From Clostridiales bacterium (lineage in GTDB: Bacteria; Bacillota; Clostridia; Peptostreptococcales; Acidaminobacteraceae): 32,753 nucleotides of DNA. Shown one piece after another: positions 18,996 to 28,477 of the stretch. Position numbers and translations under genes: made by a program. Each line of letters opens with the position of its first letter. Positions within the stretch are counted from its first letter, which is position 1. The notes beneath the pieces are model-generated. The model saw only the letters and a program-made list of their open reading frames with translations, made no database searches and had not been told where the DNA came from. Location: positions 1-32,753 of the forward strand of contig JAIOSU010000277.1 of the NCBI GenBank assembly GCA_021107455.1. The letters are read 5' to 3'.

Positions 18996-21008
18996 TTATC
19001 TTTTCATGCGAGCCATCATTCTTGAAATTCCGCCACCATTCTCAACTTTTGTGAAACCGTAAGCTTTCAGAATTTGTAGTCCGTAGGCACTCCTTGCTCC
19101 AGAAGCACAGTATAAGATAGTCTCTCTTTCTTTATTATCAAGTTTTTTAGCTTGATACTCAAGTTCATCCAGAGGAATATTGATCGCACCTGGAATGGCA
19201 CCATATGAAAACTCTTCTGCGGTACGCACGTCGATAATCAATGGACCAGTTGGAGCCTCTTCCTTAACCTTTTCTTTCACAGCTTCCACTTTTTCTTCCT
19301 TGCTTGATTCTCCGAGTGTTTTCTCTACTGGAGCTGGAAGATCTAAAACAAAGCTTACCGGTGTGACTGCACTGACATAATTGGAAAGACTGATGAATCC
19401 ACCACTGACATTGAATACATTCGTAAATCCTGCACCAGTCAAAATACGAAGAGCCTGGTGACCTTTTTTACCTGTTTTATCATAGACGAAAATCAGTTGA
19501 TCCTTCTTTAGTTGATCAAGATTTGAAGCAAGAATTTCAATTGGAATATTCAAAGATCCTTCAACATGAGCTTTTTCAAATTCGAAAACATCTCTTACAT
19601 CTACCCATTGAGCTTTCTTTCCTTCCAGATATGCATCAATCTCATTGATTGTCATAGTAGGAGAGAAACCTGAGATTCTATTTTCAGCCACATATGCAGC
19701 CATGTTCATTGCATCGTTGGCATTTCCGAGTGGTGGAGAATAAGCAAAATCGATATCCGCTAAATCAGATACTGTAAGTTTTGATGCAACAGCCACAGCA
19801 AGAACATCTAGTCTTCTATCTGCCCCTGCATAGCCAGCAGTTTGTCCACCTAGTACGATACCAGTTTCTTTGTCATAAACAACAAGCAAACTCACCATCT
19901 CTGCTCCAGGATAATAGGAAGTATGGTGTTCTTTATGGACTACGATTGCATCAGCGTCAATACCTTCTGCTCTTGCAGCTTTTAATGAGAGTCCTGTCAT
20001 ACCTGCAACCGCTTCAAAAACTCTTACGATTGAGGTGCCTATTGGTCCACTGTATTCATGATTTTTTCCAAGTGCATTTTCAGCGGCGATTCTACCTTGA
20101 CGGTTTGCCGGTCCTGCAAGAGGAATTCTTACTTTTTTACCGAGAACACGATGTTCGAATTCAATCATGTCGCCAGCACCATAAATATTCTCATCACTCG
20201 TTCTGAGTGTTGAATCAACAAGCAGTCCTCCAGCTTCTCCCATGGCAAGACCAGATTCCTGAGCCAATTTAAGAGTAGGACGAACGCCGATTGAAAGTAA
20301 AACCATATCCGCATTCACGATTGTGCCATCTTTAAGTTTGACATTCTTACTTGCAATCTCAGCAAGCGCTTTGTTCGTATATAAATCGACTCCATAAGAA
20401 ATCATTTCCTGCTGGATAAATCCTGCTATTTCAGCTTCCATGATTCCCATGACATGTGGCATCATTTCGATAACGGATACTTTCATACCTCTTTTTGCAA
20501 GTGCTTCGGTCATTTCAAGTCCTATGAAACCACCTCCGACAACAACAGCTGTTTTTGGTTTTTCATTTTCTATAAAAGAATTGATTCGATCCATGTCATC
20601 AAGCGTCCATAATTGAAAAACATGATTTTGATCTGCACCTGGAAGTGGTGGTGCTATAGGTTTTCCACCTTGAGCCAGGATCAGTTTGGTGTATTCAAAT
20701 GTTTTCTTTTCACCTGTTCTCGAATCTACTGTATGCACAATTTTGTTTTCTCTGTCAATTTCTGTTGCAGTTGTATATATATGAACCGCTGTTTGATACT
20801 CGTCATTAAAACTCTCAGGACTTTGTAATATAAGTTTTGATCTGCTTTTAATATCTCCGCCAATATAATAAGGCAGTCCACAGTTAGCAAATGATATATC
20901 TGCACCAGCCTCTAGAATTGTAATTTGAGCGTCTGCCGAAAGTCTTCTCGCTTTTGCCGCCGCCGTAGCACCTGCAGCTACACCACCAATGATAACAATT
21001 TTCTCCAT
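18996..21008 (-). CDS. CoA-disulfide-reductase-like FAD oxidoreductase with two C-terminal rhodanese domains
   Basis: VIIGGVAAGATAAAKARRL, FANCGLPYYIGGDI (active Cys), then rhodanese 1 (LIFVYDKTGKKG) and rhodanese 2 (TILYCASGARS). Confidence 0.92.
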   Translation of the reverse strand: MEKIVIIGGVAAGATAAAKARRLSADAQITILEAGADISFANCGLPYYIGGDIKSRSKLILQSPESFNDEYQTAVHIYTTATEIDRENKIVHTVDSRTGEKKTFEYTKLILAQGGKPIAPPLPGADQNHVFQLWTLDDMDRINSFIENEKPKTAVVVGGGFIGLEMTEALAKRGMKVSVIEMMPHVMGIMEAEIAGFIQQEMISYGVDLYTNKALAEIASKNVKLKDGTIVNADMVLLSIGVRPTLKLAQESGLAMGEAGGLLVDSTLRTSDENIYGAGDMIEFEHRVLGKKVRIPLAGPANRQGRIAAENALGKNHEYSGPIGTSIVRVFEAVAGMTGLSLKAARAEGIDADAIVVHKEHHTSYYPGAEMVSLLVVYDKETGIVLGGQTAGYAGADRRLDVLAVAVASKLTVSDLADIDFAYSPPLGNANDAMNMAAYVAENRISGFSPTMTINEIDAYLEGKKAQWVDVRDVFEFEKAHVEGSLNIPIEILASNLDQLKKDQLIFVYDKTGKKGHQALRILTGAGFTNVFNVSGGFISLSNYVSAVTPVSFVLDLPAPVEKTLGESSKEEKVEAVKEKVKEEAPTGPLIIDVRTAEEFSYGAIPGAINIPLDELEYQAKKLDNKERETILYCASGARSAYGLQILKAYGFTKVENGGGISRMMARMKR

Positions 21009-24514: not shown

Positions 24515-24639
24515 TGTCTTACCGCCTCTTACTTTTTTTGATTTCCATTGATTATATCAAATCCGCGGATTGCAATCAAATAAAAAACTCTTGCATATCA
24601 TTGCAGTTTATGGTAAATTTCTCTCAACATATAATTTAC

Positions 24640-24838
24640 AGACTATGATTGAGGGATGAAGTATCAATAGCACTTCAAAGAGAGTTGGCGTTTGGTGAGA
24701 GCTAACAGGTGTCGATATGGATAAAGACTCATGAGTTGCTATTAAGCCGGTTAACGACCGTTATCCCGTCATAAGTTATAAATTAGGATGGTACCGCGTG
24801 AACACGCTCCTTACAGTGAATGTAAGGGGCGTTTTTTA
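24640..24838 (+). promoter_or_regulatory. T-box riboswitch (tRNA-Lys responsive) with terminator
   Basis: T-box AGGATGGTACCGCG (24785-24798); candidate specifier AAA (24723-24725) in GGAT-AAA-GAC; terminator CGCTCCTTACAGTGAATGTAAGGGGCGTTTTTT; upstream of lysS. Confidence 0.92.
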
Positions 24839-24888
24839 TTTAAAAAATTCAGAAGGAGGCAGCATGACATGGTCATGCGAAAAAAATT

Positions 24889-26382
24889 ATGAGTGAAAAC
24901 ACAACTGTAGTAAAAAAATTGAGTGAACAAGAGCAGATTCGAGTGGATAAGCTTAAAGAATTAGAAAATTTAGGGATAGATCCCTTTGGTGGCAAATTTG
25001 ATGTGACACACCACTCTGAATCACTGATAACAACCTACATGGACAAGACAAAAGAAGAACTTGATGAAACTGAAATAGATGTTGCTGTTGCTGGCAGAAT
25101 CATGACCAAGAGAAGCAAAGGCAAAGCAGGCTTCATGCATATTCAAGACAACGATGGACAGATTCAGATTTACCTTAGACAAGATACACTCTCTGAGCTT
25201 GACTACTCTGTATTTGATATGTGTGACATCGGAGATATAGTTGGAATTAGAGGTAGAGTTTTCAAAACAAACACTGGGGAGATCAGTGTCAAGGCAAAAG
25301 AATACATCCATCTCACAAAAGCACTTAAGCCACTTCCTGAAAAATTCCACGGCATTACTGATGAGGACGACAAGTTCCGAAAAAGATATCTCGACATTAT
25401 AATGAACCGCGATGTAAAAGAAATTTTCTTGAAAAAACAAAAATTCTGGAGTACAATCCGTAATTTCCTTATTGAAAATGACTTTCTCGAGGTAGAGACA
25501 CCGATTCTTGAGACTTCTTCAGGTGGCGCAGCAGCTACACCATTTGCTACCCACCACAACGCACTGGATATAGATGTCTTTTTAAGAATTTCGATGGGCG
25601 AGCTCTGGCAGAAGAAACTCCTGGTAGCAGGCTTTGAAAAGACGTTTGAAATTGGAAGGCAGTTTAGAAATGAAGGTATGAGCCCTGAACATCTTCAAGA
25701 TTATACTCAAATGGAGTTCTACTGGGCGTATGCCGATTTCAAAATGGGCATGGAATTTTGTAAAGATATGTACCGTCGAGTGACAAAAGCGGTTATGGGT
25801 ACATCCAAATTTAAGACTCGTGGCTTTGAAATAGACATGGATGACGAATGGATCATCTACGACTTTGAAACAATCATCGAAGAGAAAATGGGCATCAATA
25901 TTTTCAACACAACCAAAGAAGAAGTCATAGCCAAACTCGATGAGAAAGGTGTCGAATACGATCCTAAATCAGGTTTTTGGAGATTGGTCGACATACTATG
26001 GAAAGTTGTAAGAAAAGATCTTTCCGGTCCTGGATTCCTCGTTGGACAACCGGTTCAACTCAATCCACTTCCAAGAAGGCTCAAAGAAGATGAAAGAAAA
26101 GTGGCTCAAATGCAAATCATCCTAGCAGGATCAGAAATGGGCAATGGATACACTGAGCTCAACAATCCACTCGACCTTGAAGAACGTTTTAAAGAGCAAC
26201 GTTCAATGGGAGAAGCTGGTGACGAAGAAGCTCATGATCACGACGAAACCTTTGTAGAAGCTCTCCGCTACGGGATGCCTCCAGCATTCGGTTTTGGAGT
26301 GTCTGAAAGATTTTTCTCAGTCATGATGGACCGTCCGATTAGAGAGTGTGTAATGTTTCCGCTCATGAAGCCGAAGTCATAA
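24889..26382 (+). CDS. lysS: Lysyl-tRNA synthetase, class II
   Basis: SEQEQIRVDKLKELENLGIDPFG, FLEVETPILETSSGGAAATPFATHHNALD, FEIGRQFRNEGMSPEHLQDYTQMEFYWAY; T-box upstream. Confidence 0.98.
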   Translation: MSENTTVVKKLSEQEQIRVDKLKELENLGIDPFGGKFDVTHHSESLITTYMDKTKEELDETEIDVAVAGRIMTKRSKGKAGFMHIQDNDGQIQIYLRQDTLSELDYSVFDMCDIGDIVGIRGRVFKTNTGEISVKAKEYIHLTKALKPLPEKFHGITDEDDKFRKRYLDIIMNRDVKEIFLKKQKFWSTIRNFLIENDFLEVETPILETSSGGAAATPFATHHNALDIDVFLRISMGELWQKKLLVAGFEKTFEIGRQFRNEGMSPEHLQDYTQMEFYWAYADFKMGMEFCKDMYRRVTKAVMGTSKFKTRGFEIDMDDEWIIYDFETIIEEKMGINIFNTTKEEVIAKLDEKGVEYDPKSGFWRLVDILWKVVRKDLSGPGFLVGQPVQLNPLPRRLKEDERKVAQMQIILAGSEMGNGYTELNNPLDLEERFKEQRSMGEAGDEEAHDHDETFVEALRYGMPPAFGFGVSERFFSVMMDRPIRECVMFPLMKPKS

Positions 26383-27541: not shown

Positions 27542-28477
27542 TCATTTCATGATTTTATATTGACTTCTACCATTGCGTTTGGCTTCTATCAAAGCCTTGA
27601 AACTTTGATCTTTCATTTGGGCCACGTGCACTGGTTTTACGGTTTCTGTGATTCCACATGAAACGCTAATTTGTCTTCCACATCCAATGGAGGCAAAATC
27701 AAATGACCCTATTGCACTAAAAATACTTTCGACACTCTCGATTACTTTTAAATGATCCGCATTTTTTAGGAAGATACTGCATTCGTCTCCACCCAAGCGG
27801 GAAATCAACATCTCATCGCTTATTTTTTCCATTGATTCTTCCATTTCACGAACGATCATAGAAAAAACATTTAATATGACAGCATCTCCGACATCATAAC
27901 CATCAAAATCGTTGACATGCATAAAGTTATCAATATCAAAAGTAATGAAATGGTAAAGATCATTTCGATCCTTATCCAAAACTTCTTCCATTTTTTCCAT
28001 GAATACATCCCTGTTCATAAGTTGCTTTAAATCTACCTTTTCCACCATCTTTTTCTGACTTTCAACACTCATCATAATACTCCCTTCTAAATCCAATAAT
28101 TGATTGATAGAAGGAAAAGAGCTGGGGGATTGTTTTTCAAGGTGTAATATGGATCTTTTAAGCAATAGAAGACTCGATTTGATCACATCGGATTCTTTGG
28201 TCAGTTCAACCTCTCTGTCTTTCAGCAAATCTAAAAACTCTAATAAATTTACAGGTTTGCTCAGCAGTTCCTTTATGGTCGACAAAGTGAATCCAAGGTC
28301 TTTTAGAAATTGAATCTTTCGAAGTTCTATCATTTGATCTTCACAGTAATACCTGTAGCCATTTTCTTCATTTAAAGCTATAGGGCTGAATAGATCAAGC
28401 TTGTCATAATGTCTCAACATTCTTTTTGAAATTCCAGAGCGCTCTGAAAATTCACCAATCAAATAATTCTTCACCAT
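27542..28477 (-). CDS. MerR HTH - GGDEF domain fusion protein
   Basis: YLIGEFSERSGISKRMLRHYDKLDLFSPIALNEENGYRYY (MerR HTH); FDIDNFMHVNDFDGYDVGDAV and SRLGGDECSIFL (GGDEF domain). Confidence 0.88.
   Translation of the reverse strand: MVKNYLIGEFSERSGISKRMLRHYDKLDLFSPIALNEENGYRYYCEDQMIELRKIQFLKDLGFTLSTIKELLSKPVNLLEFLDLLKDREVELTKESDVIKSSLLLLKRSILHLEKQSPSSFPSINQLLDLEGSIMMSVESQKKMVEKVDLKQLMNRDVFMEKMEEVLDKDRNDLYHFITFDIDNFMHVNDFDGYDVGDAVILNVFSMIVREMEESMEKISDEMLISRLGGDECSIFLKNADHLKVIESVESIFSAIGSFDFASIGCGRQISVSCGITETVKPVHVAQMKDQSFKALIEAKRNGRSQYKIMK

Follow-up and report, generated by a model that had tools for sequence, protein, structure and literature searches.

Shine-Dalgarno (SD) spacers that are shortened by RNA structure are known mainly from two genes of bacteriophage T4. 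In these phage genes, 25 and 38, studied in E. coli, a hairpin brings the SD closer to the start codon (27 nt are reduced to 11 in gene 25, and 22 nt to 5 in gene 38), destabilising mutations lower initiation, and the case has been proven by mutation and chemical probing (Nivinskas 1999; Malys and Nivinskas 2009; PMC3014915). The start region of a lysS gene in a Clostridiales bacterium, located within a stretch of 32,753 nt that was analysed as a whole and is called the window here, resembles them in every feature that can be read from sequence: the SD is distant (29 nt), an intervening hairpin would restore the spacing (to 12 nt), and the hairpin is present in close relatives and missing in distant ones, as it is for the T4 genes (PMC3014915). 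Unlike the T4 genes, lysS is a chromosomal gene of Clostridia, is under the control of a T-box and is known here from its sequence alone, and in one relative its layout is found before many genes. The principle of such a split site is thus already known, and its chromosomal, recurrent version is new; a literature search that missed most subscription papers returned no chromosomal split ribosome-binding site.

Among the other described systems close to this locus are lysyl-tRNA synthetase (LysRS) genes preceded by a T-box, which, according to Foy et al. (2010; PMC2916919), are rare, being found in four species among 891 genomes and always on one of two LysRS. The window lysS (24889-26382, plus strand), which encodes a class II LysRS (NCBIfam TIGR00499, 454.7 bits, above the cut-off), fits this pattern, as it is the second LysRS copy of its genome, with 41% identity to the paralogue (G000:C304). 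It is comparable to Bacillus cereus lysK and Clostridium beijerinckii lysS2, in which a lysine T-box is likewise found on a second LysRS, and it differs from them in being a class II gene of the Fusibacter/Acidaminobacter group and in its start region, since the description of lysK and lysS2 in the same excerpted text mentions no hairpin between the SD and the start codon (PMC2916919). The lysine T-box that the original prediction had placed upstream of lysS is real: the leader at 24636-24814 (plus strand) matched RF00230 in cmscan with 85.4 bits (E 3.5e-19) over the full model, which is below the gathering score of 93, while the T-box of the lysS orthologue in genome G016 scored 93.4 bits and thus exceeded it. 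Stem I, the T-box sequence, the antiterminator/terminator and a lysine specifier were all found, and the specifier position (AAA) and the ATAAAG specifier region are identical in all leaders of this T-box type. The intrinsic terminator, a hairpin with a predicted 12-bp stem followed by a U run (ACGCTCCTTAC...GTAAGGGGCGTTTTTT), occupies 24804-24839 (plus strand). Orthologous lysS genes within one family carry two T-box types, a short variant near the Rfam cut-off, as in the window, and a standard one (L006/L007).

The start region lies directly downstream. Its SD, AAGGAGG at 24853-24859 (plus strand), is the sole strong SD before lysS and is identical or nearly identical in all relatives; structure prediction left it largely free and mostly unpaired within the folded leader. 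From its core, GGAGG (24855-24859), 29 nt extend to the lysS ATG (24889-24891), and these contain a perfect hairpin with a 7-bp stem, GCATGAC-ATG-GTCATGC (24862-24878, plus strand), so that both the SD with its spacing and the hairpin were exact to the base in the original prediction. The stem was predicted to pair with a probability of at least 0.98 in every leader length tried, with a fold energy of -9.3 kcal/mol, and it exceeds chance expectation when the spacer is shuffled (P = 0.01 for stem length, P = 0.001 for energy). The hairpin is followed by an unpaired linker of 10 nt (24879-24888, plus strand), whose length is constant and whose sequence is variable in the relatives; a second SD was not found in this linker in any of the five species that have the hairpin. 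The hairpin as a repeated element was ruled out, as a search of the window genome gave a single occurrence of the inverted repeat GCATGA(N2-8)TCATGC, and the pattern GGAGGYAGCRTG..CATGC..ATG was found before lysS only, in five genomes. Rfam searches with the window hairpin and with hairpins of G016 gave no credible match.

We consider, with a probability of roughly 0.7, that lysS has a structure-shortened, or split, ribosome-binding site, a prediction that agrees with its distant and sole SD and with a stable hairpin located wholly between the SD and the start codon. A gap of 29 nt is too long for ordinary initiation. The 7-bp hairpin, beginning 2 nt past the SD, would fold away 17 nt and leave 12 unpaired nt (2 + 10), across which the 30S subunit could pair with the SD and set the ATG in the P site. 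The lysine T-box would then determine transcription into lysS, and the hairpin would act in translation of the lysS mRNA that results from read-through. The residual spacing of 12 nt, which is near the upper limit of known spacings, is the same in all five leaders that carry the hairpin; it would be compatible with initiation, T4 gene 25 having 11 nt. We infer that the ribosome would accommodate the hairpin and that opening the hairpin would lower lysS translation.

About ten genomes of one family, those of Fusibacter tunisiensis and Acidaminobacter sp. JC074 among them, have a close orthologue of this lysS, and none was found outside that family in 396 genomes of the order and a 388-genome sample of the class; distant LysRS loci (L009-L030, about 43% identity) belong to a different LysRS group and were left out of the comparison. 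The hairpin is present in five leaders from two genera, those of the window species, G001, G002, G003 and G016, whose LysRS are 98%, 94%, 82% and, for G016, which belongs to another genus, 83% identical to that of the window. Among the orthologues, the lysS of Fusibacter tunisiensis DSM 24436 (L039) has the hairpin. All five share the order GGAGG, 2 nt, hairpin, 10 nt, ATG, even though the hairpin is 15, 17 or 21 nt long and the linker sequence differs in each species. The lysS genes of McD1.13 (L037), HSG29 (G053), G010 and JC074 (G055) have a plain SD at a normal distance without a hairpin, and so the hairpin goes together with the distant SD; McD1.13 has the same T-box type as the window, and yet the hairpin is absent. 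The LysRS tree does not order the branches of G016, McD1.13 and the window genus, and the hairpin may therefore have been either gained or lost. The G002 leader (L003) has an extra in-frame lysS ATG 1 nt after the hairpin; the start was tentatively placed at the ATG 10 nt after the hairpin, because that geometry matches the other hairpin leaders.

A sixth leader, from another genus and with the other set of T-boxes, may be an independent case and was kept only as such. In the lysS leader of G009 (L033, 2420-2500), the sequence is GGAG-TA-GTGGTA.TCTTT.TACCAC, followed by 10 nt and ATG, that is, an unrelated stem in the same geometry. When compared with shuffles, its energy had a P of 0.014 and its stem length a P of 0.25, and because the stem length alone is unremarkable, this hairpin may be convergent or due to chance.

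In an alignment of the six leaders including G009, 6 of 8 stem pairs showed two-sided changes by pair counting, and 95% of the alignment cells were paired, compared with 2-50% in slid controls. The covariation score was 0.50 against 0.21 in shuffles, none of 500 shuffles scoring as high. The leaders with related stems, five in all, are a small set, and G009 contributes much of the two-sided variation; without G009, two pairs have two-sided changes (A-U to C-G in G003 and C-G to U-A in G016), to which U-G in G001 at the C-G/U-A pair and a change from A-U to G-U in G016 can be added. Across genera, the stem sequence (GCRTG/CATGC) shows partial conservation, while the loops (ATG, AAG and AAAAC) differ. 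As read from this alignment, the hairpin is conserved in related bacteria by matched mutations. The original prediction had offered as an alternative that the hairpin simply brings the SD near the ATG, and this alternative is now supported by the conservation of the structure through two-sided changes, by the constant distances on either side of a hairpin of variable length, and by the recurrence of the layout in G016.

This recurrence was found by scanning 2.4 Mb of the complete G016 genome, 24 kb of it masked; the scan had been prompted by two matches in the first 0.8 Mb, and both are included in the counts. At 23 sites, a perfect hairpin of at least 6 bp begins no more than 4 nt after AAGGAG; 16 of these sites precede the ATG of an open reading frame of at least 80 amino acids, 15 of them 7-11 nt past the hairpin, and reversed or complemented SD words gave 0 to 2. 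GGAGG reads the same when reversed, and its reversed control is thus uninformative. When sites were required to have a start codon at a distance of 24-45 nt and to lack one at 3-13 nt, 15 of 27 sites with an SD and a hairpin qualified (12/24 when four identical copies are counted once), compared with 68 of 1394 strong SDs without a hairpin (Fisher p 9e-13). Conversely, starts at a normal distance were found for 567 of the 1394 SDs without a hairpin and for only 1 of the 27 with one. A looser scan with weak SD words, in which a modest SD excess was seen at 7-12 nt, was dropped because it was swamped by chance (105 against 91 in controls), and the strict scans alone were used. An apparent open reading frame of 5733 amino acids in G016 was an artefact of masked N.

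The genes with this layout in G016 are unrelated: they include hslO, thiG, and genes for an iron-type alcohol dehydrogenase, a DAK2 protein, a U32 peptidase, an SBF transporter and a Na+/H+ antiporter, as well as galE and trmB, which were recognised by eye only. Among 29 hslO leaders, the hairpin was found in G016 alone, and nearly all the others have an ordinary SD. Several of the G016 hairpins share a TATACT..AGTATA stem; in the rest of the order, this stem was found in G053 alone. On this evidence, it seems fairly probable that some Clostridia of the Fusibacter/Acidaminobacter group use an SD, 1-4 nt, a hairpin and a start codon 7-11 nt further on as a standing style of start site before at least a dozen unrelated chromosomal genes, lysS being the most widely conserved example seen, and that one G016 type (TATACT..AGTATA) has spread to many genes.

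Near-identical leaders of the form AAAGGAGAGTTATACTAAA..TTTAGTATACAA-ATG, four of them identical copies, were observed before unrelated housekeeping genes in G016 (L209, L210, L211-L214 and L215) and in G053 (L205 and L207), and none of the 394 other genomes sampled from the order has them. Judged by sequence, this family of leaders looks like a start-site cassette that is spreading.

Two short open reading frames overlap the window hairpin, and they are the basis of two other explanations. The locus resembles leader-peptide attenuation and short-ORF coupling in that a short open reading frame after the SD ends at the start of the structural gene; it differs from these systems in that the sequence, codons and frame of the short reading frame vary, and in that the overlap is set by the lysS start sequence. 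The original prediction had preferred control by a mini-ORF, MVMRKKL (24869-24892, plus strand), and the ATG at 24869 does open the frame ATG GTC ATG CGA AAA AAA TTA TGA. Ribosomes stalling at its two lysine codons would sense a shortage of lysine, as a second layer below the T-box, and two AAA codons do stand directly before lysS in the window species, while MRKKL is readable in G001. The leader alignment that had been proposed as a check conserves the hairpin and neither the lysine codons nor MVMRKKL, which is absent from all relatives: the frame reads MVMR* in G002, MRQK* in G003 and MRIIL* in G016, the ATG at 24869 is lost in three of the five leaders (G001, G003 and G016), and the lysine codons are gone in G002 and G016. 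The linker before lysS is simply A-rich. MVMRKKL is judged incidental, confined to the window species and rejected as a conserved control element, the frames of the relatives refute stalling as a conserved mechanism, and stalling has scarcely any probability left. Coupling through the other frame is a better candidate, even if an unlikely one. Here, translation would begin with the RTG of the 5' arm (24864), run for about 10 codons through the hairpin and stop at the lysS start, where ribosomes would re-initiate. In the window, the ATG at 24864 opens MTWSCEKNYE (24864-24896, plus strand; TGA at 24894-24896), and the RTG, 4 nt from GGAGG, is kept in the five leaders (ATG in four, GTG in G016; five of six if G009 is counted), and in none of the five is the frame interrupted before the lysS start. 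However, this RTG belongs to the conserved stem, and the peptides (MTWSCEKNYE, MIRSCVKNYE, MTWSCDEYNE, MQGMRQK and, from GTG, MIKTIMRIIL), with 0 or 1 lysine, are alike only among the closest species. The stop of either mini-ORF at the lysS start is automatic, because lysS begins with ATGAGTGA, which closes both other frames and is also found in L037, where there is no hairpin; the ATGA overlap noted in the original prediction is present, therefore, and is rejected as a sign of coupling. Furthermore, the sole 5'-arm start codon of G009 is in frame with lysS, and the hairpins before other genes of G016 mostly contain no ATG, and hence the layout is independent of a mini-ORF.

The hairpin could instead be a regulatory site at which a protein, for example LysRS itself, or an RNA binds and blocks or frees the start codon. 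GCRTG/CATGC is conserved across genera beyond what spacing alone requires, and the gene encodes a tRNA synthetase, autogenous control being known for genes of this class; against this, the loop differs in sequence and size, the G009 stem is unrelated in sequence, and no single ligand fits, because in G016 the layout precedes unrelated genes with other stems. We regard a regulatory site as improbable, to about the same degree as coupling or slightly more so. Inverted repeats can also serve as operators, and stem-loops near 5' ends can slow decay, so that the repeat might act in DNA or in mRNA stability, its position between the SD and the ATG being incidental. This is very improbable, since the window genome has a single copy of the repeat, its half-site spacing varies, the G-U pair in G016 suits RNA and not DNA, and the post-SD hairpins of G016 precede start codons at a narrow distance.

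If the split-site reading is true, a real class of start sites escapes gene finders and expression models in which the SD must lie 5-10 nt from the start. The lysS gene, which encodes a tRNA synthetase and is already under T-box control, would be a conserved chromosomal member of this class, and the counts in G016 give a statistical sign that the layout recurs across one bacterial genome. A natural set of such hairpins would allow the handling of a folded spacer by the 30S subunit to be studied, and it also bears on the response of such sites to temperature, helicases and ribosomal protein S1.

Two other genes of the window, both on the minus strand, were noted. The product of 27542-28477 carries a MerR-type DNA-binding region at its N-terminus (residues 5-76) and a GGDEF domain at residues 142-309, and is predicted to be a regulator fused to a diguanylate cyclase. 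The gene at 18996-21008 encodes a CoA-disulfide-reductase-like flavoprotein with C-terminal sulfurtransferase-like matches.
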